A stretch of 53,333 nucleotides of DNA from an uncultured delta proteobacterium (GTDB lineage: Bacteria; Desulfobacterota; Desulfovibrionia; Desulfovibrionales; Desulfovibrionaceae): contig LT599019.1 of NCBI GenBank assembly GCA_900079685.1, positions 1-53,333 of the forward strand. Reading direction: 5' to 3'. The notes under the pieces are model-generated. The model did not search any database and had not been told where the DNA came from. It saw only the letters and a program-made list of their open reading frames with translations. Position 1 is the stretch's first letter. The number at the start of each line of letters is the position of its first letter. Positions 625 through 35,848 of this stretch are shown one piece after another. A program made the position numbers and the translations under genes.

Positions 625-1478
625 GATAGTGTCGTCACGAGATTGTCTAAAATTTGATTTTGTGGCATAGTTCGCTTGCCTTCCACCGCAAGCGAGGACC
701 ACATGTCACGACCTGCCCATAGACGACACGACATTTCTGATGCTGTTTGGAAAAAACTCGAGCCTCTTTTGCCTGGCCGCGAAGGGAGTTGGGGCGGCGT
801 AGCCCACGACAACCGACGCTTTATAGATGCAGTTTTTTGGATCATGCGCACCGGTGCGCCATGGCGAGATTTGCCGCCCGACTTTGGCGGCTGGAGCAAC
901 ACCCACCGTAGATTTATTCGCTGGCGTGATAATGGTGTGTGGGAACGACTGCTTGAAATGTTGATCGACGAGCCGGACTTTGAATGGCTGATGATCGATG
1001 CCAGCCATTGCAAAGTTCATCCCCACGCGGCTGGAGCCAGAGGCGGCAATCAGGACATGAGCCGCACAAAAGGGGGCTCAACACAAAATTGCATCTGCCG
1101 TGGATTCGCATGGTATGCCGCTCAGGGCTATTATTACACAGGGTACAACAGCAGATTGCACTCAGGCAATCGCACTGATTGACGGATTTACAGCCGAAAA
1201 TCTTTTGGCGGACAAAGGCTATGACACGGATGCGATTATTGAGCAGGCCAAAAGCCAGGGGATGGCACCGGTCATCCCCTCGAAGAAGAATCGCAAAGTA
1301 CAACGAGATTACGACAGGGAGCTATACAAAGCTCGTCATCTGGTAGAAAACGCCTTCTTGCACTTGAAGCGGTGGAGGGGCGTTGCTACCAGATATGCAA
1401 AAAACACGGCGTCATTTCTGGCCGCAATACAGATCAGGTGCATCTTTTTATGGGCTTCTGTCTCGTGACTACACTGTC
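625..1478 (+). mobile_element. IS5-family insertion sequence, 854 bp, TA target duplication
   Basis: Terminal inverted repeats lie at 625-642 (GATAGTGTCGTCACGAGA) and, inverted, at 1461-1478 (GACAGTGTAGTCACGAGA), matching at 16 of 18 bases. TA at 623-624 and 1479-1480 is the target duplication. Deleting the element plus one TA restores the reading frame of the interrupted host gene, which fixes the ends. The single transposase on the plus strand, the size and the short TA duplication fit the IS427-like group of the IS5 family. Confidence 0.9.
703..1468 (+). pseudogene. IS5-family transposase, in two overlapping frames
   Basis: This is a DDE transposase acting on the surrounding IS ends. The amino part (ATG at 703, preceded by GAGGA) reads MSRPAHRRHDISDAVWKK and carries the first catalytic Asp in DASHCKVH. 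The carboxy part, in another frame from about 1100, carries ADKGYD (second Asp) and VENAFLHLKRWR (catalytic Glu). Joining them to the family sequence KGGLNTKLHLAVDSHGM needs a -1 shift at the A4G5 run (1068-1076) and one more missing base near 1097. The first shift could be programmed, as in some IS5 relatives. The second looks like a real lesion, so the enzyme is probably inactive. Confidence 0.8.
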
Positions 1479-3460
1479 TAGGAACCGCCGCCAAAATCAC
1501 CGGCAGTCTTGAATACGACTTTCCGGCTTTGCGGCTCGACACAGAGCGCCCCCATTTTTAGCGATTGAAAATAGGCCGAACTGATAAAGTCTTCATTGCG
1601 TTCTTCCGTGACCGTGTTTTCCACGGCTTCGGTGTGCGGAACGTAGAGATTTCCCGGCAGAGCTTCCAGGCGCTTTGCAATTTCATGGCCCAAATCCATG
1701 AGCGGCGCGTCAGAAACACAATTCAGCGCGTCATGGAACATGCCCCCGGAATAGGCCATTTTCCCTATTATCTGGCCGGGATTGGCAGCGAAGTAGCTGT
1801 TGACGGTCGCGGGCTTCGTCCCGCCGTCCTTGTGGTCCTCCGCGACAATGGAAGCGGTACGGGTCCACTCTTTGCCGCGCTTGTTCTCGCCGGTATTTTT
1901 CTGGAAAAAGACAATATCCGTGGTGACATCGGTCAAGGCGTTTTGCCGGAATGCGGTTTCCGGCAGGCGGACAGCCCCCAGGAAGTCGGCATACTGCGAA
2001 ATGTGTTCCCGCACGGACGGGTCCGCAGCGTCCAGAAAGAAGCGGCTGACCACAAACGCGCCAACGCCGCCCTCCCGTAAGAGTCCCAAGGATTTTGAAA
2101 TAAAATAGTTGTGGATGGAGAATTTTTTCAGTTCCGGATAATCCGGATCGTACAGCGACTGCTTGCCGAAAGGCGGGTTGCCCACAACGGCGTCGAAAAC
2201 GGGCGAGGTGAGACCGGCGCCCTGAAACCCGTTATTGACATGCCGCGCTTTGGGATAAAGATATTGTGAAATGGCCGCTGTAGTTGGGTCCAGTTCCACG
2301 GCCAGAAACTGCGCGTCGAAATTCTCCGGGCAGAGGCCCATGAAATTGCCGATACCCGCCGATGGCTCCAAAATGCGAAGACTGCCGCTTTCGCCCATGC
2401 CCAAGGTGGATAAACCCTGGTATATCCCCTTGATAACCGTTTCGGAAGTAAAGTGGGCATCTTGAGTGGAGCGGCGGGCTTTTGCGTATTCGTCGGGAGC
2501 AAGCAGTCCCTGCAATTCCCGGTATTCAGCGGCCCATTTCTCATTTGCCGGGTCGAATGCCTGCGGCAGTCCCCCCCAGCCGACATAGCGGACCAGAATC
2601 TTTTTTTCTTCCGGGCTGGCCTGGTCCGCACCTGCTTCCTGAAGCTGTTTCAGCAGGCGTATGGCGGCGATATTATCAGCAAACTTCGTTTTCGCGCCGC
2701 CAACGCCCAACTGGTCATCCGGAGTTATTCGGTAATTGTCAGACTCATATCTATCCCGGCCAACTCCAAAATCTCCCAATCGCTCATCCCCCGGAGCTTC
2801 GCTTGCCGGGCTGACTCGCTGCACAGGGTCCGCTTCTCCAATGTCTGTTGCTGGTCCAGACGCAGCAGCAACGCCAAATCCCCTTGCTGTTCCAGCCGTT
2901 TCAACTGGTCCGGGTCGTTCAGCGCCCATCTGTCCAAAATCAAGTAAGCTGAATTGGTGAACCCTCCGCTTCTGACTTCCCGTATCGTTTCCGGCTTGAG
3001 AACGCTTCGGGCTATTTCCAGCGGGCTTGTCTGTCTGTCGAGCATTGTGAACCTCCGATGTAAGTGTGTTGCCCTTGGTGAAGGCCGCAACTTCTTCCAC
3101 CGTCAGGTATTGGGATTTTCCTCTGGCAAAAAGGTTTCCCGGCGTATCCTTGTCTCCATCAACCGACTGCATGATCTCCGGATTCCGGCTGACCATGCGG
3201 CCCCCGTCTTTCAGTGCATAAACGGTCGCGCCTTTGCTGTTCAGGCCAAGACGGACATAGGGGGGCGACAACTCTTGCTGCACAACGTCATTTTCGGGCG
3301 TTCCCAATGCGGCTACGTTTTTTTGCCCGGTATGACTCTTATCTTCCTCAAGGTCGGCCTGAATGTTTTCAGTCCGAATCTGCTCAATCTGGTCCGTCAT
3401 AAGGTCCATCATAAAAGACAGTTGACGGGGATCGTATTTCTGTTTGCGTCGTCTTGCCAT
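1478..3460 (-). pseudogene. Amino part of a large N6-adenine DNA methylase/helicase, interrupted by the IS
   Basis: The 660 codons from ATG 3460 (MARRRKQKYDPRQLSF) encode a charged amino region, then YVGWGGLPQAFD, the AdoMet site LEPSAGIGNFMG (about residue 365) and the methylase motif VGNPPFGK (about residue 425). NPPF marks an N6-adenine methyltransferase. Together these are typical of the very large methylase-helicase (SNF2/strawberry-notch-like) proteins of integrative elements, thought to modify or protect element DNA. An in-frame upstream ATG at 3490 is less likely. The frame stops at 1478-1480, at the IS border, so the present product lacks everything encoded left of 624. Confidence 0.8.
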
Positions 3461-3499
3461 TTCCCGTGCCTTTTGGCCGCAAAGCCTCAAGGCGGGCGG

Positions 3500-8729: not shown

Positions 8730-9145
8730 TTTATCTTGTCCTTTATCTTGATGACGTAATTGCCGCCCGTGCCGTATACTTTGTACAGATTGTTCCCGCC
8801 GAGCTGGTTGACGGTACTGAGCACCTGGTTGTGCGCCTCGTTGATTTTTTGCTGAATCATTGAATCGACCTGGTTGCACAGGCCCGTGATAATCTGGTCC
8901 ATGCTCGGCAAATTCACGCCAAGGGTGAACCCATCCCCAATGTGGTTGATGACACTGAGACAGTTGGAGAGCGGCCCCCGCTCCGACTCCGGATCGGGCA
9001 ACAACACATTATGGCTGTCGGAGACTCGACCGCTACGCTCAAGAATGGCCGCGCTCACGGCTTCTTGCGTATCCTGGCAGGAACCGGCGAAGCACGGCGT
9101 TGCGAACACCGTCAGCAGCATAATGGCAGCAAAAAGTATCCTCAT
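8726..9145 (-). CDS. Small exported protein of the transfer operon, function unknown
   Basis: The 139-residue product has a clear signal peptide (MRILFAAIMLLTVFATPCFAG). The mature part has three Cys residues (GSCQDT, LSNCLS, GLCNQV) and a glycine-rich end. I do not recognise a named family. Its place between topB and the lytic transglycosylase, with 4-base overlaps on both sides, says it is made with the transfer apparatus and is probably periplasmic. Confidence 0.7.
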   Translation of the reverse strand: MRILFAAIMLLTVFATPCFAGSCQDTQEAVSAAILERSGRVSDSHNVLLPDPESERGPLSNCLSVINHIGDGFTLGVNLPSMDQIITGLCNQVDSMIQQKINEAHNQVLSTVNQLGGNNLYKVYGTGGNYVIKIKDKIK

Positions 9146-11277
9146 TTTTTTCCTCCGAAGTCAGGTTCGCCGTTCCCGGCCACCTGGTAGGTTTGTTTGC
9201 AGCCCGGATACCCGGAGCAGCCGAAGAAAGCGCCTTTGGCTCCTTGGCGTTCAATAAGCGGCTTACCGCACGTTTTGCAGGAATGCTTGGAGAGCACAGG
9301 CGCTTGCCGGGCTTTTCCCGGCTGGCCGTTATCGTCGGGCATGGTCGTTTTACAGGCCGGATACCCGGAACAGCCCCAAAACCACGTTCCGGGCTTTTTG
9401 CCTTTGCGCCGGTAAACCGCCGCACCACAATCAAAGCAGGAATGAGTGGGCGGGCCTCCGTTCCCCAAAATCGGGGCCAGCAGATCCGGCAGAATTTTCG
9501 TCTGCTCGACCATGAAGCCCGCCAGCGTTTCCTTGCCTTGGGCAATGGCTTCCAGCCTGCTTTCCCAGGAGGCGGTAGTCACCGGGTCTTTCAATGTGGC
9601 CGGCGTCAAGTCGATAATGTCCTGTCCGAGTTTTGTTGCCACAATGGCTTTTTTCTCGGTTATCAGGTACTGGCGCTGTTTCAGAGTTTCGATAACCCCG
9701 GCGCGGGTGGCTTCGGTACCGATTCCCTCATTTTCTTTGAGCACTGACTTTGCCGCAGCATCGGATACGAAGCGGTGGACGTTGGCCATAGCTTCAATGA
9801 GTGTCCCTTCGGTGAACCGGGAGGGGGGCGAGGTCTTTTTCTTCAAGGTCCGCACATCGCGGCAATGAACGCTTTCCCCCTTTTCCACCAAAGGCAGCGT
9901 CTGGTCCTGCTCCTGTTCGCCGTCCTGTGTGCCGGAACCATCGTTATCGCTGGCAATGACCGTCCACCCGGCCTCAAGGATGCGCCGCCCCCTGGCTTCC
10001 CAGCGTGTATGACCAATGGAGAGCACGATTTTTTGCGCCTCGTAGCGCATGGGCGGATAAAATTGCAGGCAATAGGCAGACACAATCAAGGAGTAGAGAG
10101 CATATTCCGTATTGGTGAGGCTCCCCGGCATTTCTCCGGTAGGAATAATGGCGTGATGGGCTGTGATTTTTTTGGTGTTCCAAGCTGCGCTCTTCAGCTT
10201 TGCGTCCGCCTTAAACGCGATGGACTCCAGGCCAACGAAGAGGGAAAGATTTGCAAGAATCATCTTCGCGGCATCAAACTGCTCTTCCGGAAGATAGCGG
10301 CAGTCCGAGCGCGGATAGGTGGTCAGCTTCTTCTCGTACAGGGATTGCGCGGTATCCAGAACTTGCTTGGCGCTCATGGAGAGTTTGGCGGACGCCTCTT
10401 TTTGCAGCGACGAAAGACAATGCGGGAGCGGCGCGGCCTTGCTCTTATTCTCCCGCACGGATTCGGTGATTACGCCGTTCGCGCCTTTCGAGCTTTCTGC
10501 CAGGGCATTGGCGATAGCGGCATCGGTCAGCCGCCCGCTCCCATCAAGCCCGGTTTGCGTGTCGCCGGGAATGAATACAGCCGCAAATTCATCCCCGGTC
10601 GCAGGAGCAAGATAGGCCCGCAACACAAAATAATCAGAGGAGACAAAAGACGCGATTTCCCTGTCACGGGCCACGACCAGGGCCAGAGTAGGCGTCTGGA
10701 CCCTGCCCACGGACAACACCTTGCTGTTCAGTCCGGTTTCCCGGCCCATGATGGTCATGGCTCTTGTGGCGTTCATGCCGATAAGCCAATCAGCTTGTTG
10801 CCGGGCGCGGGCGGCATCACGCAAAGGAGCCTTTGCCACATTATCCGTAATGCCCTTCAACGCTTTTTTCACGGAACAGTCATCCAGAGAGGCCAGCCAG
10901 ATACGGGACACCGGGCCTTTATAGGAAAAATGCTCCAGAACTTCGTCAACAAGAAGCTGGCCCTCACGATCCGGATCACCCGCGTTGACCACCGATTTGG
11001 CTTCTTTCAGGAGCTTGCCGATTATTTTGAGTTGTGCCGTCGCCTTGGGCTTTGCTTTGCTTCTCCACGTCTGCGGAATAATGGGTAGATGTTCACGCCG
11101 CCAGGAGGCGTATTCGGGTTTGTAATCCTCTGGATAGCAAGGCTCCAGCAGATGCCCGAAGCACCAGGTTACAACATCATTGCCGCAGCGGATGCAGCCG
11201 TTGTCTTTACGCCCGTTGCCGAGGCCGTCAGCGATGGCCCGGCCAAGGGAAGGTTTCTCCGCGATAAACAGTCTCAT
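9142..11277 (-). CDS. topB: DNA topoisomerase III (TraE/TopB type)
   Basis: This 711-residue type IA topoisomerase relaxes and decatenates DNA through a 5'-phosphotyrosine. The TOPRIM domain starts MRLFIAEKPSLGRAIADGL, with VVNAGDPDREGQLLVDEVLEHF holding the acidic metal site. The active tyrosine is Tyr321 in LTTYPRSDCRYLP. Two carboxy-terminal four-Cys zinc ribbons (CFDCG..CSGYPAC and CKTCG..CSGYPGC) bind DNA. TopB genes are common in IncP/IncI-type conjugative elements, where they help resolve transfer or replication intermediates. The gene overlaps its downstream neighbour by 4 bases. Confidence 0.95.
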   Translation of the reverse strand: MRLFIAEKPSLGRAIADGLGNGRKDNGCIRCGNDVVTWCFGHLLEPCYPEDYKPEYASWRREHLPIIPQTWRSKAKPKATAQLKIIGKLLKEAKSVVNAGDPDREGQLLVDEVLEHFSYKGPVSRIWLASLDDCSVKKALKGITDNVAKAPLRDAARARQQADWLIGMNATRAMTIMGRETGLNSKVLSVGRVQTPTLALVVARDREIASFVSSDYFVLRAYLAPATGDEFAAVFIPGDTQTGLDGSGRLTDAAIANALAESSKGANGVITESVRENKSKAAPLPHCLSSLQKEASAKLSMSAKQVLDTAQSLYEKKLTTYPRSDCRYLPEEQFDAAKMILANLSLFVGLESIAFKADAKLKSAAWNTKKITAHHAIIPTGEMPGSLTNTEYALYSLIVSAYCLQFYPPMRYEAQKIVLSIGHTRWEARGRRILEAGWTVIASDNDGSGTQDGEQEQDQTLPLVEKGESVHCRDVRTLKKKTSPPSRFTEGTLIEAMANVHRFVSDAAAKSVLKENEGIGTEATRAGVIETLKQRQYLITEKKAIVATKLGQDIIDLTPATLKDPVTTASWESRLEAIAQGKETLAGFMVEQTKILPDLLAPILGNGGPPTHSCFDCGAAVYRRKGKKPGTWFWGCSGYPACKTTMPDDNGQPGKARQAPVLSKHSCKTCGKPLIERQGAKGAFFGCSGYPGCKQTYQVAGNGEPDFGGKK

Positions 11278-11280
11278 AGC

Positions 11281-12672
11281 TTACGCCCTCATGCGCGGCG
11301 CAGGCGCGGTCTGTTGTTCCGGAGTACGGTGGGCAACCGATTCTGTACGGGATTTTTCTTCCAGTTCCATGTACAGCGTCTGCGAAAGCGTATCGCAGAG
11401 CGAAGCCAAGTCCCGCACGGCATTGGGGTCTTGCTTGAGCGCCATTTCCAGGAAATCAGGGTTCTGGAGCACCAGACGAGCCTTGGCAACCGGGTCGTCT
11501 GTTTCCTTAAAAGCGGCAATGGAATCAACCAGAGTAGGACGCTCGGAACGCGGTACGGCGGTTTGTGGAGCGATCTGTGGAAGGCTATGAAAATCAGCGC
11601 CGGTAGCGGCATCCCGCTCTTTTTGCATGTTCACCAGCTCCGGCCAAACTTCACTTTTCGGGAACCAGCGGGCGGACGGCTGCTCACCGGCTTCAAACTG
11701 GCGCATGGTGGTCAGCGCTCTGGCCGCTTCCGTCGCCGCCTGGAAAACTGCTTTGATATCCCCACCGGAAAACTTCTGATTCCAGTGTTCAATGTAGGCG
11801 GCGGAATTACTTTCCGGCATGGGCAGATTAAGCCGCGCTCCGGTCAACATGGAGAACATCTCTGCCCGCATTTCTTCAAAAGCATAGCCCTTGAGCGTCT
11901 GCGACTGTTTGTTCTGCCGATTTTCCCGCGATTCGTGCCCGGTGGCGTGGTAGAACTCGTGCAGTTTGGTAGCGTAGTATTCATCCGTGCCGGTGAAGCG
12001 TTCGGGGAACGGCATTTTTACAAGGTCGGCGGCATGGTTATAAGCTGCATCGCCGCCGTGATGCTCCACGGGAATGCCGGAACTGGCGATGAACTTCTCC
12101 ACAAATTCATTGCGTTCAATTTCCGTCATGGCATGAGCGGGCTGTTCCTTTTGCGGGAAGCCATCAACCTGTGAGGCATTGAACACGGTAAACGGGTAAA
12201 AAAGTGTTTTGCGCTGTATGTCGGGCGTTTCTTGCTCCTGTGCTTTTTGTTCCGCAAACTGCTTGATTTCTTCCTGAGAAAGAAATTTCCAACGCCCATC
12301 CTCTTCGACCGTGAAAACAATTTCTTCCGGACGCAGAAGTTTGACGCCTTTCTCCCCCTTGCGGATTTTCATATCCAGGTCCGGATTGTCTTTCTGAAGC
12401 TGCTGGAGTTGTTTGAACGTCATCCAGCGGTCATCTTTATAGCTCTGGACGATACTGGTCAGCATCAGGCGAACCATGTTCGCACCGCCGTATTCCCTGC
12501 CGGTAGTGGCGCAAAAGGGCATTCCCATCGGCGTGTCGGCGGTCCAGGGCTTTTTCCATTCGCCAGCCGTCTGCGCCAGGGAAAGCATGGTTTCGGCCAC
12601 GCCGTTGACAAATTCCTCCTGCACTTCCCGGCTGATCTGGAAACGGTTCTTTTTTTCCGGGGCTTGGCTCAT
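11281..12672 (-). CDS. ArdC-like antirestriction protein (ssDNA-binding domain plus zincin)
   Basis: The 463-residue protein has an amino-terminal ArdC-type domain (WKKPWTADTPMGMPFCATTGREYGGANMVRL, then WMTFKQLQQL and RKGEKG). A zinc-metallopeptidase-like centre follows with HEFYH near residue 237, HESR, and a downstream Glu in YAFEEMRAEM. ArdC proteins bind single-stranded DNA and shield the incoming element from restriction. The carboxy third (after about residue 330) is not one I recognise. The 4-base overlap with the small upstream gene marks an operon. Confidence 0.87.
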   Translation of the reverse strand: MSQAPEKKNRFQISREVQEEFVNGVAETMLSLAQTAGEWKKPWTADTPMGMPFCATTGREYGGANMVRLMLTSIVQSYKDDRWMTFKQLQQLQKDNPDLDMKIRKGEKGVKLLRPEEIVFTVEEDGRWKFLSQEEIKQFAEQKAQEQETPDIQRKTLFYPFTVFNASQVDGFPQKEQPAHAMTEIERNEFVEKFIASSGIPVEHHGGDAAYNHAADLVKMPFPERFTGTDEYYATKLHEFYHATGHESRENRQNKQSQTLKGYAFEEMRAEMFSMLTGARLNLPMPESNSAAYIEHWNQKFSGGDIKAVFQAATEAARALTTMRQFEAGEQPSARWFPKSEVWPELVNMQKERDAATGADFHSLPQIAPQTAVPRSERPTLVDSIAAFKETDDPVAKARLVLQNPDFLEMALKQDPNAVRDLASLCDTLSQTLYMELEEKSRTESVAHRTPEQQTAPAPRMRA

Positions 12673-12914: not shown

Positions 12915-13187
12915 TCACCACCGGCACCGTTTCCGCCATTGAATTTCATTGCTCCGCGTTTCCCGGCGTCTGCCCAGGTAGGCCACCCGGAGAGCGCGGC
13001 AGCAGGCCAAAGGCGACATGCCGGTACGCTGGACCAGATACAAAATCAGCATTCCGCCTGCGGCGATTGCCGCCGTCCAGTAGGCCCAATGGAAAAGCCA
13101 CAGAGCCAGGGGGAAAATGGCGCGGGCATCCAGAATGAATATTTTTGGCGCAATGCCGGTATCCCGCCACAAAACTTCGCCAGCCAT
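12915..13187 (-). CDS. icmT: IcmT/TraK-like type IVB secretion protein
   Basis: The 90-residue protein begins MAGEVLWRDTGIAPKIFILDARAIFPLALWLFHW. Residues about 20-53 form two membrane segments, and GMSPLACCRALRVAYLGRRRE follows. The pattern LWRD, then F-DARA-FPL, then a basic tail matches IcmT of Legionella and TraK of plasmid R64. It is a small inner-membrane part of the secretion machine. AGGAGG lies 6 bases before the ATG. Confidence 0.85.
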   Translation of the reverse strand: MAGEVLWRDTGIAPKIFILDARAIFPLALWLFHWAYWTAAIAAGGMLILYLVQRTGMSPLACCRALRVAYLGRRRETRSNEIQWRKRCRW

Positions 13188-13220: not shown

Positions 13221-14159
13221 TCACGCCGCCAGACCACGCCGTGTTCTTTCCTGCTCCCAATAGTCGGGCCACAAAATGGATTTGAATAACGCCTTGTGAT
13301 TCACCCACCGGCAGTACAGGCGTTGCTTTATGGTCGGAGCCGTATCGTTGGTGAAATCCCTGTATGCCTGCGCGAATGGCGCAAGGCCCAGGCCGCGCAA
13401 GAACATGGTCCGCTCGTAGGCTTCATCCACGTCCGTCACCAGGACGTAGCAAAAATATTCTTTCGGCCTGGCTCCCGCAGCACGAAGAAGGTTCACGGCT
13501 CTTTCGACAACCGGCATCTGGCCCTTTTGGTCACAGGCCAGACGCAACGGCCTGAACCAGCCCAAAGAGGCCAGGCGACGGGCTATCGGCCCGTCAATGC
13601 GTCTGGCATCGAGACCCTGGTTGAAATCAACGCGCAGACCGAGCCGGGCCATTTTTTCGATTTGAGCAATACCGTGGTCGTGGGCCAACACATTGTTGTC
13701 CAGCAACACGACATGCCGGTGGCGGCAAAATTCCTCGACATCAGCATGGGCGCGGACTTCCCCCTCTTTCCGGGGAACGATGCACCAGGAGCAGTTGTTG
13801 GAGCAGCCTCGCGTTATGAAACCCAAACTGTATTCAGGCTCAGGGCGTTTCCGCCTGCTGTTTCGGCGCTCATGCACATGCCGGTAGATTGAATAATCAG
13901 GGCAGATATGTTCCACCGCATCGGGCAGAGTATTGAAAATGCCGTAGCCGGTGCCGGATTTGACCGCCCACGGCGGCAGGCTGGAATCTTCCGGCGTCCA
14001 CGAAAAGACTTTGCTGGAAAACACCTGGTCGTACTGCGCGGCCTCATCCGGCGCGTACCACACAACCTCATGCCCCTGTTGCCTGTGCCATGCTGCGATC
14101 TTCATCAAGGCCAAGTTGGGAAAATTGGTGTCGTCGGAATCATGCAGGGCAATCAGCAT
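13221..14159 (-). CDS. Radical SAM enzyme with an amino-terminal B12-binding-like domain, cargo in the transfer operon
   Basis: ATG 14159 (GGAGG 8 bases upstream) gives 312 residues. The amino part MLIALHDSDDTNFPNLALMK..GHEVVWYAP resembles the Rossmann-like domain of B12-binding radical SAM proteins. The 4Fe-4S ligands are C119, C123 and C126 in TRGCSNNCSWCIVPRKEGEV. LDARRIDGPIARRL and the basic carboxy end follow. The substrate is unknown. It overlaps the PAPS-reductase-like gene by 20 bases, so the two are coupled. Similar enzyme pairs are familiar from phages and mobile elements, which makes nucleic-acid modification an attractive but unproven role. Confidence 0.8.
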   Translation of the reverse strand: MLIALHDSDDTNFPNLALMKIAAWHRQQGHEVVWYAPDEAAQYDQVFSSKVFSWTPEDSSLPPWAVKSGTGYGIFNTLPDAVEHICPDYSIYRHVHERRNSRRKRPEPEYSLGFITRGCSNNCSWCIVPRKEGEVRAHADVEEFCRHRHVVLLDNNVLAHDHGIAQIEKMARLGLRVDFNQGLDARRIDGPIARRLASLGWFRPLRLACDQKGQMPVVERAVNLLRAAGARPKEYFCYVLVTDVDEAYERTMFLRGLGLAPFAQAYRDFTNDTAPTIKQRLYCRWVNHKALFKSILWPDYWEQERTRRGLAA

Positions 14160-14976
14160 CTTGCCCTCCGTCCGCGTCAGTATTGTTTTCTTCGCCTTTC
14201 GCATCTTCGGCGGCGAACCGCATTTCCAGAGCGGCCACGGACGGAGCGTGATTAAACCGCCGCCTTTTGTCGTCTTCCAAAAGCCAGGAATCCATTTCCA
14301 GCATCCGGCCCCAAAGGTCGGGAAAATACCGGCGAAGCGCTCGCAAATTATCCAATGATTGCAGCGGGCAACAAAAGCAACTCACCCGGTCGAAGAGCTT
14401 GTACAGACCGCCCCAGGTGAAACCGTACCCTTTACAGTATTCAAGAGCATCGGCCTCGGTAACGCCCCATTCAATCAGGGGATACCGCTGCACATGATAA
14501 GTGCTGTCTTTTTTGGTAGGCCCGTCCAGCCGTCCAAGCTCATCGGCGGCAAAGCCGACACATTGACGCAAAGGTAGGTCAAAACCGTCCCGATGCGTCA
14601 GCGCCCGCAGATGCGCCCGCAGCGCCTCCTGTTTGCGCCCCGTACACCAACGGATACGAGGTGAAGGCCAGTAGCGTCCAATTCTGTGAACATGACTCGT
14701 TCCCCGTTTGACAATCGGGAACTCCGAAAACATCCAATCGAAAGGCGTTTTGTCCGTGACAACGCCGACCGGAAGCCGGGGACGCAAGCGTGTAATCTTC
14801 CGTCCAATGAGCTGTTCCACTTGTTCCAGGTGTTCGTGCATCTGCGGAAACTCCCACCCGCCATCGAAAAAAACGATGTCGGCTATGGGTTCGCCGCGCT
14901 CCAAAAGCATGAGCAGCATGGCCGTGCTGTCCTTGCCTCCGGAAAAAGAAACCACATTCGCAATCTGGCCCATCAA
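14140..14976 (-). CDS. PAPS-reductase/ATP-pyrophosphatase-like enzyme
   Basis: The 278-residue protein carries the PP-loop SGGKDS at residues 12-17, which binds ATP or PAPS, then DIVFFDGGWEFPQMHEHL as in the PAPS-reductase fold. Cys pairs in RWCTGRKQEAL and VSCFCCPLQS could hold an iron-sulfur cluster or the reactive thiol. DndC/SspD (DNA phosphorothioation) and tRNA-thiolation enzymes share this core. Lack of other sulfur-assimilation genes nearby argues against simple sulfate reduction. It overlaps both neighbours (20 and 4 bases). Confidence 0.82.
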   Translation of the reverse strand: MMGQIANVVSFSGGKDSTAMLLMLLERGEPIADIVFFDGGWEFPQMHEHLEQVEQLIGRKITRLRPRLPVGVVTDKTPFDWMFSEFPIVKRGTSHVHRIGRYWPSPRIRWCTGRKQEALRAHLRALTHRDGFDLPLRQCVGFAADELGRLDGPTKKDSTYHVQRYPLIEWGVTEADALEYCKGYGFTWGGLYKLFDRVSCFCCPLQSLDNLRALRRYFPDLWGRMLEMDSWLLEDDKRRRFNHAPSVAALEMRFAAEDAKGEENNTDADGGQDADCPA

Positions 14977-15947
14977 AACAACCCCTGGTTGGCGGTGTCA
15001 CGATGGGGGGATACGATAGCGAACTTTGTTCCGTTCATTTCAAATTCTGATTCACCTCTGAGGTGTTTTCGTATGTCTATGTCAATTCCTTCTTTTATCC
15101 TCCTCTGATGCGCCTTTACCCAATGAAGAATTGGCCTTTTCCTTCCTGTAGTAGTCATGGGAAGCTTTCTTGCATAAAACAGACTTTTGATTTGCGATTC
15201 ATAGATGCCGAAAAGTGCTTTTGCTTCCCCCTCTTGCGCCATCACATTGAACATATTCACCCTGTCGCACCAATAAAACAGGGCAATCACTCCCCGCTCA
15301 CTCCAGTTTGAGAGGCCGGGAACGATGTTTCCGTCATGGCCATAATCTTTAACGCGGATGTCACGAAAACCATTCCAGACAACCCGGTTTATGTAGACGG
15401 GAATCGGTTCTCCTTCTTCCGAGAGAGCCAGCATCATTCTCCCAACGGCCATGCCATTGGAGCCGGGATAAAAATGAACCTGCTCAAAGAGATACTGATA
15501 TGAGCGGTCACAGAACCACCCTCTGGGTAATTGCGGCTTGCTTTTTCCCTTTGCTGGCAAGATGCGGCGCAAAACGGTCGTCCAGCCATATTCCCCGGTA
15601 TTACTGCTTTCTCTTGGATTTTTGCTTGAAAAAGCGGCATAGCTTGGAATCCCATCTACGTCAGGCTGTATGCCGAACCCCGCATAGTAAGCCCGGTCAT
15701 TCGGGGCAAAGTAACAACCAGTTTTTCTTAAAAGGGCTTGAGCTTCACCAAAAGGAATATGAAATTCTGGACAGTTTCTTTTGTCGTTGGCATGGCGCGT
15801 TGTTTCGTATTGCAGGATTAGTCCCTTTGCGACTGTTTCCTCAAAATCTTCCATTTCCCAAAATCCGGACGGCTCTATCTCGCTGTCCACCACAGGTTTT
15901 GCTTCCTCGGCTTCTTTCATAGCTAACATCTTAAAAACATTTCTCAT
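14973..15947 (-). CDS. 324-residue protein of unknown function, coupled to the PAPS-reductase-like and radical SAM genes
   Basis: I recognise no family. The protein is soluble, rich in aromatic residues (WNGFRDIRVKDYGHDGN, RGVIALFYWCDRVNMF), and has one basic stretch (RKRPILHWVKAHQRRIKEG) that could touch nucleic acid. Its ATG shares one base with the upstream stop (TAATG) and its stop overlaps the PAPS-type gene by 4 bases, so three or four proteins are translated together. It may be the substrate-recognition partner of the two redox/sulfur enzymes. That is inference from position only. Confidence 0.7.
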   Translation of the reverse strand: MRNVFKMLAMKEAEEAKPVVDSEIEPSGFWEMEDFEETVAKGLILQYETTRHANDKRNCPEFHIPFGEAQALLRKTGCYFAPNDRAYYAGFGIQPDVDGIPSYAAFSSKNPRESSNTGEYGWTTVLRRILPAKGKSKPQLPRGWFCDRSYQYLFEQVHFYPGSNGMAVGRMMLALSEEGEPIPVYINRVVWNGFRDIRVKDYGHDGNIVPGLSNWSERGVIALFYWCDRVNMFNVMAQEGEAKALFGIYESQIKSLFYARKLPMTTTGRKRPILHWVKAHQRRIKEGIDIDIRKHLRGESEFEMNGTKFAIVSPHRDTANQGLF

Positions 15948-16243
15948 TATAATTCCTCCAGCGGAGCGCCCATCAGAGGGTCAATCTCCAGATAAAAACT
16001 GTCGCTGCTGTCTCCCGTTTCCGCGCCGGTTTTCGGCTGCGGCAGACGCATATGCAGCCGGGCCATGCCCGTTTTCGGGTCAGGCAGCGGAAACGCTCTC
16101 AGGAGCAGATTGAAAGAGCCGTCTTTGTTTTGGAACGCCGCGCCCATTCTGAGCCATGCGGCCCTGGTTTCGCCGTCCTTGCTGTACTCGGTGATTGAAA
16201 ACACCTCGTAGTACGGTCTTTTTGTTTCTTGATGTTGGTCCAT
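15947..16243 (-). CDS. 98-residue protein overlapping the end of dotB, function unknown
   Basis: The likely start is ATG 16243 (MDQHQETKRPYYEVFSI), with AAAGGA 7 bases upstream. The protein looks like a small beta-rich domain (AAWLRMGAAFQNKDGSFNLLLRAFPL), like small proteins often found on integrative elements. It lies in a different frame from dotB, which runs 164 bases into it. Coding character in the overlap favours this gene, so the dotB tail is probably the accidental part. Confidence 0.65.
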   Translation of the reverse strand: MDQHQETKRPYYEVFSITEYSKDGETRAAWLRMGAAFQNKDGSFNLLLRAFPLPDPKTGMARLHMRLPQPKTGAETGDSSDSFYLEIDPLMGAPLEEL

Positions 16244-17381
16244 ACGATGATCCTTTTGTGTTTTTGCGTTCCGCCAAAATCGCCAGATACTTGTCCTTGC
16301 TGATTTTTCCGTCCGCATATGCATGTTCCGCCGCTTCTTGAATCCGCTGGCCGGATACGAGCAGAAGTTCCTCTGTTTTCTGAATCAGGCGTTCCGGAGG
16401 CGTATCGAGCAGCGTTTCCCGGATTTCCGGGGTGAAAGCCAGATATTCACGCAGGGCAACACGCCCGCTTTCATCCGGCAGAGGGAGAAGGCGTTGGGAG
16501 ATAATCAGCCGCAGGCTGGCCAAAAGCGTAGCCGTCACCTGGCGCTGCTCTTCATTGGGGAAGACGTTGATGATACGAGTGAGTGTTTCCGGAACGGAGC
16601 GGGTATGTACTGTGGAATAGGCGGCGACACCGATTTCCGCGCTTTCAATCATGCCCCGGAGCGTTTCAGGGTCGCGGCTTTCACCGATAAGCACCACGTC
16701 CGGAGCCGTGCGCGTGGAGTTGCGTGTGGCCGTCAGGAAGGACTGCAAATGTTCCGGAATGGTGCTTTGCGAAACTGGCCCACCCGGATTGGGAATGGCG
16801 TCAAAATCAAATTCAATGGGCGATTCATAAGTGCAGACGTGCCGCCCGCCTTTTTCGATGATGTGTCGCAAAATCGCGGCCAGCAGCGTTGATTTGCCGC
16901 TCCCCATGACGCCCGTAACCAACACCAGCCCGTTACCGGGTGTGGCATGGTCCAAAATCCCTTGCTCGACGTGCAAAGCATCCAAAAGGGGAGGCTCGGA
17001 CGGGATAGCCCGGAAAACAATTTTGACGCCTGTTGCGTAGCCGTCAGCGACCGGCGTGGCGTTGCCGCGATACCGGCGGCGCACACCCCGCGATTCCTCA
17101 ATCTGATGAGCGAAGTCGTAGTCGGATTGGCCGGATTTTATCAGCGCCGCAACAGAATTGTTCTTGGTCAGGCGTTCCAGACCGGCCAGCAACTCGTCAG
17201 CGGTAATCGGACGCTGCGTGACCGGACGCCATATCCCGTTCAAACGCATCCAGGCGGGGCTACCGGAACGCAGACACAAATCCGACATGCCGCAATGGGT
17301 CGCCCACAACAGCAGAGCGTTGATGTCTGAGTAATCCCACCGGATACGCGGCTCGTCCGGGAACATGCCGACCATTGCCAT
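16080..17381 (-). CDS. dotB: Secretion ATPase, DotB/TraJ (PilT-like) family
   Basis: DotB is the hexameric AAA+ ATPase that docks to DotO to energise type IVB secretion. The 433-residue frame has an amino domain (HCGMSDLCLRSGSPAWMRLNG), the Walker A loop GVMGSGKST, the Asp-box region PDVVLIGESRDPETLRGMIESAEIG, and the His box YSTVHTRS. Family members are about 375-385 residues. Here the last 50 or so residues are an out-of-frame reading of the next gene, with two serine codons (TCA TCG) where a stop may have been lost. An ATG two codons downstream (17375) is also possible. Confidence 0.92.
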   Translation of the reverse strand: MAMVGMFPDEPRIRWDYSDINALLLWATHCGMSDLCLRSGSPAWMRLNGIWRPVTQRPITADELLAGLERLTKNNSVAALIKSGQSDYDFAHQIEESRGVRRRYRGNATPVADGYATGVKIVFRAIPSEPPLLDALHVEQGILDHATPGNGLVLVTGVMGSGKSTLLAAILRHIIEKGGRHVCTYESPIEFDFDAIPNPGGPVSQSTIPEHLQSFLTATRNSTRTAPDVVLIGESRDPETLRGMIESAEIGVAAYSTVHTRSVPETLTRIINVFPNEEQRQVTATLLASLRLIISQRLLPLPDESGRVALREYLAFTPEIRETLLDTPPERLIQKTEELLLVSGQRIQEAAEHAYADGKISKDKYLAILAERKNTKGSSYGPTSRNKKTVLRGVFNHRVQQGRRNQGRMAQNGRGVPKQRRLFQSAPESVSAA

Positions 17382-31491: not shown

Positions 31492-32769
31492 CTACTCCGT
31501 ACCTGTTGCGATAAGTTTTTCGGAAGTTCGCCCTTGCTTGCGGCGAACCACAACTGCCTTTGCCTCTCCCCCCTGCTTCTCTTCCTTTTTGTCTGCAAAG
31601 GCTTCCTTTTTTGATAAAGGCGAAGAAGGAGCAGGAAAGAGGATGTGACGATTTGCAGGACCACGGCTTGCCAGTGCGCTCAGAGCATCCGAAACTTCCG
31701 AGAATGCTCCAAGGCTGTGCAGGTATCTGTCCGTGGTTGTCTGCTTTTCGTGGCGCAGGGCGTGCTGGATGGCAAAGAGGCTTTTGCCCTCCTGTGCCAA
31801 GATGGTGGCGGCCAGATGCCGGATGGCGTGAAACCCGAATGGTTTCACCTTGGCCTTGGCGCAAAGCCTTTTCATTACGTGGGCTGCCGTTTTATACGGT
31901 CGCCCGATATACGGCTCCACCGGGCAGGTGAACACATGGTTCCCCTTGCCTTGGCGGTATTGCCACAGCCAGAGCATGGTGGCCCGCACTTCTTCATTCA
32001 TGGGCATTTCGTCACGTTTTACCGTCCCTGTGCGGGTTTTGCGTGTGGTCAGCACCACTGTGCCACGCTCAAAGTCCACATCCTGCCAGGTCAACTTGAG
32101 AAGTTCGCCCTTACGGGCTGCAAGGTTGAGAAAGCAGGTCAGCATGGCCTTCTCACGTTCCGGGGCCGCCTCATAGACCTTCCAGAAATCCTCTTCCGGC
32201 GGAATGTACCGGGGAACACGGATTTCCGCATACCGCTGGCAGGCCAGAAAAGGATCCGGCATATCCAGCGGAAAATGGTCGAGGTAGGCTGCGCCCCACT
32301 TCCAGGCGGTGGTCAGGACTTTACGATCTTTGTTGGAGCAGTTCGGGCCGCGTTGGTCATGCTGCCAGGCAAGGTACTTGCGGGCCTTTTTTCTGTCGAA
32401 GGATTCAACTGAATCATCTGGCGACAGTCCCTTGGTCTGTTCAAGGTAGCGGATGAACCGCCGAAAGCCGTCACGCTTCTCTTTGAAGGTTGCCAGAGTA
32501 TTGCGCCGCTGACATTCCTCAAGGTAGGCCGTTCCCCATTCAAGAACCGTCACTCCTTGGGGCTTGGAGGCCAAAAGGGTCACTTCTTCGGGTGCAGCCG
32601 CTGCTGCTTCCTCCAGTTCCTTTCTGGTGGTCACTTCCCAGGCTATGGCATTTCTTTCGTCGGCCTTGTTGCTGCCGAACCATTTTACTGCTGCCATCTT
32701 GCCCTGAAACCAGACTTGCCCTTTCCAACGCTTGGGGGAGCCTTTTTTCTTGCTCGTGAAGGTTGCCAT
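31492..32769 (-). CDS. int: Tyrosine recombinase (integrase) of the tRNA-Glu element
   Basis: The 425-residue protein has an Arg/Lys-rich amino arm-binding part, a core-binding domain (about 75-170) and the catalytic domain with R219 (LAARKGELL), H314-x-x-R317 (FHAIRHLAA), H340 (ALRHEKQ) and the nucleophile Y349 (TTTDRYLH). It should integrate and excise DNA at the adjacent tRNA-Glu 3' end. The last 60 or so residues are a charged extension. GGAG lies before the ATG. The excisionase-like gene overlaps its start in another frame. Confidence 0.93.
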   Translation of the reverse strand: MATFTSKKKGSPKRWKGQVWFQGKMAAVKWFGSNKADERNAIAWEVTTRKELEEAAAAAPEEVTLLASKPQGVTVLEWGTAYLEECQRRNTLATFKEKRDGFRRFIRYLEQTKGLSPDDSVESFDRKKARKYLAWQHDQRGPNCSNKDRKVLTTAWKWGAAYLDHFPLDMPDPFLACQRYAEIRVPRYIPPEEDFWKVYEAAPEREKAMLTCFLNLAARKGELLKLTWQDVDFERGTVVLTTRKTRTGTVKRDEMPMNEEVRATMLWLWQYRQGKGNHVFTCPVEPYIGRPYKTAAHVMKRLCAKAKVKPFGFHAIRHLAATILAQEGKSLFAIQHALRHEKQTTTDRYLHSLGAFSEVSDALSALASRGPANRHILFPAPSSPLSKKEAFADKKEEKQGGEAKAVVVRRKQGRTSEKLIATGTE

Positions 32770-34045: not shown

Positions 34046-35848
34046 GTGGCGATTTATCATCTCCATATGCAGGCCATCAGTCGCGCTGACGGCAGAAGTG
34101 CTGTAGCCGCAGCTGCTTACAGATCTGCATCCCGGCTGACGGCTGCCGATGGCCGGGTGTTTGATTTTCGGCGCAAGCAAGGCGTGGTGGCGCAGCAAAT
34201 TTTTGTGCCGGAAGGTTGTCCAGCCGTCGGCAGGCAAGATTTGTGGTTACTGGCAGAGCGTACAGAAAAACGCAAAAACTCCACGTTGGCTCGTGAAATG
34301 GATATGGCGATTCCTGTGGAATTGACCAGGCAGGAGCGTTTCAATCTTACAGTCAATTTTTGCAGATGGCTTGCTCAGGAATACCAGGTGGCTGTGGACT
34401 GCTGCATGCACAGAAAGGACAAAAATGATCCCCAAGAAAATCCGCACATACACGTTATGTTCACGACCCGCCGCTACTCACCGGAAGGTACGCTGGGAGC
34501 AAAGACCCGTGAACTTGATGACCTAAAAACGCGAAAAACGCACCTTCTGCGTATCCGCGAAAAGTGGGCGGATTTCTGTAACGGCTATCTACAGTTTTAC
34601 GGACAGACAATAGATCACCGTTCTTTCAAAGATCAGGGAATTGATGCACTGCCGCAAATCCATGTTGGTTCTGCGGCAACAACAATGACTCGCCGAGGCT
34701 TGGAAACAGAGCGCGGCGTACTCAACCGGGAAATTCAAAAAAATAATTCTGAATTTCTAAAACTACAACAGGAGATTGAAAATGTCAGATGTTTGGAAAA
34801 TGGAAGTGGCAGAGAATGTACAGAGGGAACTCAAAAACATGGAGCCTCAGATAGTAAGCTATCTGAGGAAATTGGTGCAGGAGGAGGCCAACAACGACTG
34901 GGGGCAAGCGGTGATAGCGATGGATATGGTTCACAAGGAACTGCTGGAAGTACAAGCTCAACTCCAGAAGATGGGCAAGGGGGAAATCCCACCATCCCAT
35001 TCCGTGCAAAGCCTGGTGGCACGCCTGGAAGTTCTGGAACAAGATCACGCGCAGTTGAAGACGGACGTCCGGCTTCTGCTGCCTACGCAAACCGAACAGA
35101 GCGGGTAGCAGCCTTGGAGGTGCTGGCACACATCTGCGCCAGCACCTCCAAGGAAATTCAAAGTGATATCCATGCTCTGGTTGAAGTTGTAAACTTGCGC
35201 TGTCTTGAAAGCAGTATTCGCCAACGCCGATTGCAGCGCCTTAAAGAACCCAGCATGGAAGTCATTGTGGAATGCGGGCGTGTTATCAAAGAAATTCTTC
35301 ATACCGTGGATAGGGTTAACGCGCAGGCCATCCATAAGACGCTGCTATTCTCCGCACCACAGCCTTCATCGCGCCTCGTTACCCTCACCGAAAAGGCTAA
35401 GGACATCATTGCTGTCGGCCAGAGTATTCAAAAAGAAATTCTGGCGGCTGTTGATCACAGAAACGTTCAATATATCCAGGAGTATCTGGATAGAAGACGC
35501 CTCAGAGAATTCAAAGCGTCCTGTCTTGACATTAGTGTTGAATGCGACCGCACAATCCGAGAAATTTTCGAGGCCACAGACAGGTTGGATGCCCGCTTCA
35601 TAGAGCAATGGCTTGCCCGGCACAGCGCACCAAACTTTATTGATGAGCAAGAAATATCCTTGCTTAAGCCGCCATACTGCCCCTATGTGGTCAGAATAAA
35701 TCTGGAAAATGATGAACCCCCCCAATGGATGGAGTCCAATGGCGTGATTCGGACAAATCTTGATACCCCGGAAACATCTGGGCCGGACCTCGCAGAGGGG
35801 GTTCCCGACAGCCCAGATGATACGGAAATAAACAATGCGCCTACATAG
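34046..35848 (+). CDS. mobA: MobQ-family relaxase (MobA/MobL)
   Basis: The GTG at 34046 (GAGGA 7 bases upstream) gives 600 residues. The start MAIYHLHMQAISRADGRSAVAAAAYRSAS places the nicking Tyr at residue 25, as in RSF1010 MobA. The metal-binding histidines are in QENPHIHVMFTTRR. After about residue 235 a low-complexity Gly/Ser-rich linker leads to a helical carboxy part with repeats of the form I(V)EC(G/D)R-I-EI. The relaxase nicks the oriT just upstream and leads the strand into a helper's channel. A second gene is nested in the linker. Confidence 0.9.
   Translation: MAIYHLHMQAISRADGRSAVAAAAYRSASRLTAADGRVFDFRRKQGVVAQQIFVPEGCPAVGRQDLWLLAERTEKRKNSTLAREMDMAIPVELTRQERFNLTVNFCRWLAQEYQVAVDCCMHRKDKNDPQENPHIHVMFTTRRYSPEGTLGAKTRELDDLKTRKTHLLRIREKWADFCNGYLQFYGQTIDHRSFKDQGIDALPQIHVGSAATTMTRRGLETERGVLNREIQKNNSEFLKLQQEIENVRCLENGSGRECTEGTQKHGASDSKLSEEIGAGGGQQRLGASGDSDGYGSQGTAGSTSSTPEDGQGGNPTIPFRAKPGGTPGSSGTRSRAVEDGRPASAAYANRTERVAALEVLAHICASTSKEIQSDIHALVEVVNLRCLESSIRQRRLQRLKEPSMEVIVECGRVIKEILHTVDRVNAQAIHKTLLFSAPQPSSRLVTLTEKAKDIIAVGQSIQKEILAAVDHRNVQYIQEYLDRRRLREFKASCLDISVECDRTIREIFEATDRLDARFIEQWLARHSAPNFIDEQEISLLKPPYCPYVVRINLENDEPPQWMESNGVIRTNLDTPETSGPDLAEGVPDSPDDTEINNAPT
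34782..35108 (+). CDS. Coiled-coil mobilization protein nested in the relaxase gene (MobB-like)
   Basis: In another frame within mobA, ATG 34782 is preceded by AGGAG at 7 bases and opens 108 residues, MSDVWKMEVAENVQREL. Heptad-like helices follow (VVAMD-type MVHKELLEVQAQLQKM, SLVARLEVLEQDHAQLKTDVRLLL). The mobA frame over the same bases is Gly/Ser low-complexity, so the nested frame carries the constraint. RSF1010 has the same device, mobB inside mobA. It may steady the relaxosome. Confidence 0.72.
   Translation: MSDVWKMEVAENVQRELKNMEPQIVSYLRKLVQEEANNDWGQAVIAMDMVHKELLEVQAQLQKMGKGEIPPSHSVQSLVARLEVLEQDHAQLKTDVRLLLPTQTEQSG

Follow-up and report, generated by a model that had tools for sequence, protein, structure and literature searches.

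Radical S-adenosylmethionine (SAM) genes and genes for PP-loop proteins resembling 3'-phosphoadenosine-5'-phosphosulfate (PAPS) reductases are each carried by many mobile elements, and the accessible literature labels the latter as sulfur metabolism genes. Viral copies of the PP-loop gene are treated as cysH or PAPS reductase in the available sections of two phage papers (PMC9723712, PMC10434257). pQBR plasmids carry both kinds of gene, not as a pair in the text available (PMC4989453), and IbrA/IbrB genes are recorded in viral scaffolds in the accessible part of a further study (PMC4490671). A module of Thermus phages Cumys and phiMa, as outlined in the available text, joins a radical SAM gene to a DUF483 gene and has been suggested to make unknown DNA modifications (PMC11437467). 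Its likeness to the locus described here lies in being a radical SAM module of phages for which a part in DNA modification has been put forward, and the difference lies in its partner, which is DUF483 rather than a PP-loop protein; the two were compared by description only. A word search of the available text of a paper on plasmid leading regions (PMC11541004) returned no mention of radical SAM, phosphoadenosine, PAPS, ArdC, phosphorothio or sulfur. No description of a radical SAM/PP-loop pair was met in a shallow search of the open-access literature, which is weak evidence of absence. Such a pair is encoded by the 53,333-nucleotide stretch analysed here (the window), which is the start of the 798,272-base contig LT599019.1 in the 4.0-Mb genome of an uncultured delta proteobacterium. 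The two genes are located in a Dot/Icm-like conjugation operon, flanked by a dotB-like gene and an icmT-like gene. This junction is a variable, swappable cargo slot, and the two-enzyme pair that it holds is recurrent.

The initial annotation described three overlapping open reading frames (ORFs) between dotB and icmT, encoding a radical SAM enzyme, a PP-loop enzyme and a 324-residue protein (P3), as a functional set. In outline this observation was right. The ORFs, their packing and their borders stand, but a fourth, small gene (P4) is also present and the start of the radical SAM gene is probably at 14159. The cargo ORFs are all on the minus strand and tightly packed from the dotB-like gene to the icmT-like gene. 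In reading order, the dotB-like gene is followed by P4, P3, the PP-loop gene, the radical SAM gene and then the icmT-like gene (Table 1).

To compare the slot between elements, its border genes were located in nine of them, the window included (genomes and loci are cited below by G and L numbers where they must be told apart). The elements came from a dotB search, a PP-loop search (two more elements) and a radical SAM search of genomes (one more); G162, whose contig ends within dotB, was left out. Genes 75-88% identical to the dotB-like gene of the window are found in 5 of 197 other genomes (198 searched, including its own). The dotB gene bordering the slot is 75-94% identical in seven related elements and 39% identical in a distant one, and the icmT-like ORF 73-97% and 30% identical, respectively. 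The slot is empty, with dotB followed directly by icmT, in G055, in G153 and in the distant element (G088 contig 25). It contains the PP-loop gene alone in G086, G088 contig 17 and G259 contig 16, P4 and the PP-loop gene in G216, and P4, the PP-loop gene and the radical SAM gene in L204 (contig JAITGC010000100.1 of a Desulfovibrio metagenome-assembled genome). All four genes are found in the window only. The three genes of the proposed set therefore occur together in one of the nine elements, with the PP-loop gene lacking a radical SAM partner in four, the pair lacking P3 in one and none of the three genes in three. A wider survey for co-occurrence covered 247 relative genomes at an E-value of 1e-20: 11 matched the radical SAM query (seven of these through larger proteins of a different kind), 9 matched the PP-loop query and 2 matched both. 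In sets of 149, 348 and 395 genomes, P3 was convincingly found in its own genome only. The three-gene set is wrong.

Among named genomes, the closest match to the radical SAM protein (96-97% identity) is in the L204 element of the Desulfovibrio genome, so the window's host probably belongs to the Desulfovibrionaceae. At an E-value of 0.001 the radical SAM query has no match in the whole genomes G086, G088, G055, G153 and G162; of the six genomes searched, only that of the window matched. Parsimony over the slot states suggests that the PP-loop gene arrived first, followed by P4, the radical SAM gene and lastly P3. Between the window and L204, the ratio of nonsynonymous to synonymous substitutions (dN/dS) is 0.046 for the radical SAM gene and 0.148 for the PP-loop gene, and both genes are under purifying selection. 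The corresponding values for other genes are 0.034 (dotB), 0.032 (icmT), 0.087 (a gene that we name dotA) and 0.229 (the ArdC-like gene).

Pairing of the two genes is also found outside this slot. Radical SAM loci were taken from viral contigs (the best 80 of at least 574 relatives) and from genomes (the best 80 of 401); both sets hold the closest relatives and are not random samples, and L204, which is the window's own kind of element, is among the loci. The control consisted of 80 phage SSB loci and replaced a SNF2-helicase scan of nine loci, one of them a copy (PP-loop gene in 1/8 and radical SAM gene in 0/8 of those scored). A PP-loop gene abuts the radical SAM gene (100 bp or less) in 11/80 viral loci and 0/80 SSB loci (Fisher p = 0.0007; this and the following p values assume independent loci, which holds only in part, with relatedness uncorrected). 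Genome loci contain a PP-loop gene in 28/80 cases and an abutting one in 16/80; these counts fall to 27 and 15 with a larger database, as E-values change with database size. The PP-loop gene is on the same strand as the radical SAM gene in all 22 viral and all 28 genome loci that have both. The 26 abutting pairs occur in both orders, with the PP-loop gene upstream in 19 and downstream in 7. Clustering of the 160 radical SAM loci at 70% identity gives 64 clusters, of which 22 include a PP-loop gene and 13 an abutting one. Redundancy in the set includes the near-copies L082/L083, the identical PP-loop rows of L035/L211 and three copies in one genome (L219-L221). The last are three radical SAM/PP-loop loci in the chromosome of Lentisphaerae bacterium WC36 (CP085689.1) whose PP-loop rows are at a distance of about zero, which suggests a mobile element.

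In a tree of 144 PP-loop rows (with bootstrap not fully settled), the state of abutting a radical SAM gene requires 18 gains or losses, at least 12 of which are forced by supported branches. We take this recurrence as a sign of selection for joint action, with scattered losses as an alternative for part of the tree. The PP-loop protein of the window is in a supported clade of 21 rows (98/98) that comprises 16 solo rows and five set apart (the window, L204, L109, L110 and L017). L109 and L110 are slot genes without a radical SAM partner, and the window and L204 form a group inside the four slot genes; L017, although its row is labelled 'dotslot', is a chromosomal paralogue in the window genome and not a slot gene. 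The simplest reading of this topology is that the radical SAM gene here joined a resident PP-loop gene of solo type, separately from the phage pairs.

P3 probably does not belong to this team. The tight overlaps had been taken to link all three genes; such a link is supported for the two enzymes, which abut on one strand more often than in the control, but not for P3, which is absent from the closest element (L204) although both enzymes are kept there. In L204 the P4 stop codon and the PP-loop ATG overlap, and in the window P3 is placed exactly between these two genes. Judged by eye, the ribosome-binding site used by P3 is the one that L204 has ahead of its PP-loop gene. Its GC content is 46.8% (47.7% at third positions), compared with 55-60% (60-68%) in nine other genes measured. 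P3 looks like a recent, low-GC, gene-exact insertion outside the conserved module. As the initial annotation stated, this protein has no known family: nothing was found in Pfam, NCBIfam or PHROGs at an E-value of 0.1, and a PADLOC match to type IV Cas6 (E-value: 0.026) was taken as chance. With the whole protein and three fragments at E-values up to 10, PHROGs gave scattered weak matches (the best being phrog_10678 with the C-terminal fragment, E-value: 0.077) and Pfam a single chance-level match. A tblastn search of plasmids and phages found nothing. Pattern scans found nothing in viral contigs and 12 matches in genome contigs, none of which encodes a relative, and the C-terminal motif was found among the fetched loci in P3 itself only. 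Searches of sets of 149 and 348 genomes returned only its own genome; in a set of 395, one further candidate (E-value: 0.0095) has three internal stops and was dropped. The structure prediction proposed for P3 was of no help, as the model made from the single sequence has a predicted local distance difference test (pLDDT) score of 30.5, which is worthless, and was not used.

P4 is 85% identical in L204 and 57% identical in L376/G216. In L204 and G216 it comes before the PP-loop gene, whereas in the window P3 intervenes. The sequence AAAGGATCATCGT is found before its ATG. P4 matches phrog_18187 (E-value: 0.0019), a family of unassigned function. Short tblastn matches to P4 (28-32 residues) in L109 and L377 are inside the dotB 3' end and were taken as shared dotB DNA. 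P4 overlaps the 3' end of dotB, the reading frame of which continues past its conserved end, and DNA homology between the window and G086 ends near 16234. Cargo insertion seems to have changed the C-terminal tail of DotB.

DNA methyltransferase genes are enriched near solo PP-loop genes of viruses. Solo PP-loop viral loci (76 of 80, leaving out three with a radical SAM gene and one with no detected PP-loop ORF) have such a gene within 1.5 kb in 20/76 cases, compared with 7/80 control loci (p = 0.005), and within 3 kb in 26/76 compared with 15/80 (p = 0.03). A neighbour family present in 24/80 PP-loop loci was obtained by BLAST clustering, and the member scanned is a fusion of ParB_N with an N6/N4 methyltransferase. 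Near viral radical SAM loci, C5 methyltransferase genes are within 3 kb in 17/80 cases (8/80 controls, p = 0.08), and DUF5131 genes in 7/80 (0/80 controls, p = 0.014, uncorrected, with several partners and distances tried). ASCH proteins were rejected as a recurrent partner, since only 2/160 radical SAM loci and 2/80 controls have one within 3 kb. The chromosomal copy in G259 (L367/L387, G259 C1) has the order N6/N4 methyltransferase, PP-loop gene, radical SAM gene, C5 methyltransferase. The last three are also in a row in the similar loci L211 and L035, and these loci, that of G259 included, are probably prophage. Viral contig L155 (1872-4899) has, one after another on a single strand, genes for a radical SAM protein, a fusion of ParB_N with an N6/N4 methyltransferase, and a PP-loop protein. 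The methyltransferase and ArdC-like neighbours point to nucleic acids only by association.

The proposed model for the history and role of this cargo is as follows. A phage-type, PAPS-reductase-like PP-loop gene would have entered the dotB/icmT slot first. P4 and a phage-type radical SAM gene would have been added later, and P3, an unrelated low-GC passenger, last. The radical SAM protein and the PP-loop protein probably act in concert, forming a two-enzyme accessory module common to phages and conjugative elements. From what is known of the two families, the PP-loop enzyme would activate an oxygen by adenylation and perhaps deliver sulfur from a cysteine-bound Fe-S cluster, and the 5'-deoxyadenosyl-radical chemistry of the radical SAM enzyme would be directed at the same target or at one linked to it. 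That the two act on one target is a guess, as is the target itself, most likely a nucleotide or nucleic-acid base; the benefit, again a guess, may be the establishment of the incoming element. Modification of nucleic acids or nucleotides, with no target claimed, is our leading guess for the function. Taken whole, with the swappable slot, the stepwise arrivals and the cooperating module, this explanation is evenly poised between being right and wrong. A more specific version, in which the pair is an uncharacterised nucleic-acid modification system, independent of dnd and ssp and assembled several times, that shields entering DNA or RNA from host defences, is unlikely.

Several results weigh against this model. 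The presence of a PP-loop gene anywhere in the flanks of viral radical SAM genes is only weakly enriched (22/80 compared with 11/80 SSB loci, p = 0.05), and when viral loci are chosen by their PP-loop gene, a radical SAM gene is present in 3/80. Four sister elements keep the PP-loop gene without the radical SAM gene. On the PP-loop tree the abutting label is also clustered (0/500 shuffles as low), and its changes could be losses as well as gains. The enrichment of DNA methyltransferase genes is not significant for radical SAM loci (14/80 compared with 7/80 within 1.5 kb, p = 0.16; 25/80 compared with 15/80 within 3 kb, p = 0.10). No substrate was identified by any of the evidence gathered. Some of these points favour the view that all slot genes are unrelated passengers, that their packing reflects nothing but an operon slot and that the phage pairings arise from a shared accessory-gene region. 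The sister elements and the 3/80 PP-loop-first loci fit this view, as does the fact that PP-loop genes are common in phages anyway, with 11/80 of the SSB loci having one. The direct abutting that is absent from the same controls, the single strand in every pair and the scatter of abutting over the PP-loop tree argue against it, and we consider it improbable.

The PP-loop protein carries the sequence SGGKDS and has the domain PF01507 (PAPS_reduct; E-value: 1.1e-10, 42.2 bits, cut-off 22.5). It matches phrog_424 (E-value: 3.2e-44), the PADLOC SspD model over nearly its full length (E-value: 1.1e-18) and, weakly, DndC models (E-value: 0.0016). The extra cysteines mentioned in the initial annotation are confirmed, as C111, C181, C200, C202 and C203 are invariant in 7/7 aligned sequences, the window included. 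CysH has a catalytic ECGxH motif near its C terminus. This motif is absent from the window protein, and ECG[LIM]H is found in 0/141 PP-loop family members (at least 200 residues, fetched loci), which argues against an ordinary PAPS reductase. The phrog_424 genes of phages and plasmids share the PP-loop and the cysteine motifs, and their solo viral loci show the methyltransferase enrichment; the window protein differs from them in its location in a type IV secretion system (T4SS) cargo slot and belongs to a mostly solo clade. PAPS-reductase-like PP-loop genes of phages and plasmids are putatively of the IbrA type. A weak match (E-value: 0.018) that covers the C-terminal half of the profile links the PP-loop protein to PDB entry 21fy chain C ('PptA', 270 residues), which could be a functional lead; no paper on PptA appeared among the papers listed in an open-access literature search. 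A second PP-loop paralogue, 45-48% identical, is encoded on the largest contig of the window genome (G000:C1:2937174-2937896; L014, L017), where it immediately follows a large gene that by eye contains a zincin-like stretch, and this locus is perhaps another mobile element.

The SspD match and the conserved cysteines raise the possibility of sulfur-based modification of the backbone or bases of element DNA, in which the PP-loop protein would act as an SspD/DndC-like enzyme and the radical SAM protein would stand in for the missing dnd/ssp partners. The enrichment of methyltransferase genes at solo PP-loop loci and the role suggested for the different Thermus phage locus, as far as its source was available, are consistent with this. 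However, the similarity to SspD is unspecific because the model also matches in 7/14 control genomes, and the DndC matches are weak. In contrast to SspD/DndC loci, the window genome has no dndD match at an E-value of 0.001, and a PADLOC scan of 14 window sequences, which are not all of the window ORFs, returned no Ssp or Dnd partner. The initial annotation's remark that such partners are lacking thus holds for dndD genome-wide and for those 14 sequences, dndD being the only partner searched for across the genome. A dnd or ssp system was considered and dropped. DNA sulfuration free of dnd and ssp is speculation, and modification of element DNA by sulfur is distinctly doubtful.

The radical SAM protein matches phrog_9298 over nearly its full length (E-value: 9.1e-72; residues 16-318 on positions 1-294 of the 305-position profile), a type common in viral contigs. 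Its Pfam Radical_SAM score of 17.2 is below the cut-off of 29.5. The CxxxCxxC cluster motif is present in 45/45 aligned members, as are cysteines 119, 123 and 126, with cysteine 209 in 41/45. An AlphaFold2 model made from the 45 sequences has a pLDDT of 92.8. The cluster motif and the predicted TIM-barrel fold place the protein in the radical SAM superfamily. The initial designation 'B12-type' is right for the predicted architecture, a fold of the cobalamin-domain type, and may or may not extend to the cofactor: the DxHxxG motif is found in 0/45 aligned members, but some cobalamin radical SAM enzymes lack it. In predicted fold, the protein resembles AprD4 (Z 18.0 over 288 residues at 3.9 A), TsrM (Z 18.0 over 276 residues at 3.5 A) and MgmA (Z 17.8 over 278 residues at 4.2 A), but it is only 14-15% identical to these enzymes, is shorter and belongs to a family without DxHxxG. 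Members of phrog_9298 in Phocaeicola phage PV4-TP1, Bacteroides phage LoVEphage and Caudoviricetes sp. vir215 are 34-40% identical to it, and relatives in viral contigs reach 57% among the matches listed; the window copy differs in being part of a Dot/Icm-like conjugation operon and not of a phage genome. Viral contig L054 carries two radical SAM ORFs from the family in tandem. In seven order-level relatives (G117, G121, G107, G106, G115, G114 and G099; L369-L375), open frames of 708-785 residues include a part that is 31-39% identical to the radical SAM protein. These larger proteins are probably a distinct family.

In Foldseek, the radical SAM model matches methylthiotransferases best (MtaB first, E-value: 6.6e-9; MiaB next, E-value: 3.8e-8), with Z scores of 15.9-16.9 for MtaB, MiaB and RimO when both domains are compared. 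MiaB also tops a sequence-profile search of solved structures (E-value: 0.0062) and, with a partial match, the NCBIfam list (E-value: 0.00028). PP-loop enzymes include tRNA thiolases, and the PP-loop protein has a match to MnmA at an E-value of about 0.9. These similarities would fit modification of tRNA or another RNA, with PP-loop thiolation and radical SAM chemistry protecting translation of the element from host defences. However, MiaB and RimO have three conserved cysteines in the N-terminal domain for a second Fe-S cluster, and this triad was not found in the 45-member alignment, in which no column before the cluster motif has cysteine in more than 16/45 members. By this criterion the protein is not a methylthiotransferase, and membership of that family was dropped. 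The fold is matched at least as well by AprD4, TsrM and MgmA, and the MiaB sequence matches are mainly over the cluster motif. RNA modification is about as doubtful as the sulfur modification of DNA.

The least likely explanation is auxiliary sulfur metabolism, in which the PP-loop protein would be a true PAPS or adenosine 5'-phosphosulfate reductase (cysH) for sulfur assimilation and the radical SAM protein unrelated: the PF01507 match and the gene names used in the two phage papers, as far as available, agree with it, but the missing ECGxH motif and the recurrent abutting to radical SAM genes do not, nothing in the slot stood out as a sulfate-assimilation gene (though none was searched for by name), and a general role in sulfate assimilation was considered and dropped.

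Table 1. Features of the cargo slot and its surroundings in the window
Feature	Position	Strand	Remarks
ArdC-like protein (ArdcN + zincin)	11281..12672	-	PF08401 E 1.6e-18, PF18818 E 1.4e-31; same operon region
icmT-like gene	12915..13187	-	downstream border of cargo slot; without library match
Radical SAM enzyme, phrog_9298 relative	13221..14159	-	312 aa from likely start M16; ORF to 14204 = 327 aa
PAPS-reductase-like PP-loop protein, SGGKDS	14140..14976	-	278 aa; PF01507, phrog_424, PADLOC SspD model; start TTG at 14976 or ATG at 14973
P3, orphan protein	14973..15947	-	324 aa; between P4 and PP-loop gene
P4, small protein	15947..16243 (ORF 15947-16324)	-	98 aa
dotB-like T4SS ATPase	16080..17381	-	TIGR02524; upstream border of cargo slot

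The start of the radical SAM gene is probably M16 because the family alignment begins there and GGAGG precedes its ATG. With this start, the overlap with the PP-loop gene is 20 nt. The top NCBIfam model for the dotB-like protein is dot_icm_DotB (E-value: 5.1e-77; 259.5 bits, with the curated cut-off of 463.3 not reached). The name icmT is our assumption, assigned by eye. The ArdC-like gene is two genes downstream of the icmT-side border of the cargo. A topoisomerase gene (9142-11277; PF01131, E-value: 2.5e-108) also matches the PADLOC DpdF model (E-value: 9.5e-75, residues 4-589). Near the left end of the window is an Eco57I/N6-type DNA methylase-like gene (1478-3490; PF07669, E-value: 3.4e-9), which in PADLOC matches mad2 and several methyltransferase models, and the coupling-protein gene matches mad8. 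Dpd systems modify DNA, but the DpdF, mad8 and mad2 matches were taken as probably shared domains rather than a Dpd or MADS system, with no search aimed at other genes of either kind. A phage-type integrase (31492-32769; PF00589) and a MobA/MobL relaxase (34046-35848; PF03389) are encoded on the right-hand side of the secretion genes and, as expected, fit an integrative conjugative or mobilisable element.

The recurrent adjacency of the radical SAM and PP-loop genes, together with their capture in a slot of a conjugation operon, makes them a testable two-enzyme unit, for which the surviving empty and partly filled slots provide a series of natural deletions. Should the pair prove to modify nucleic acids, it would represent a new protection route for phages and conjugative elements.

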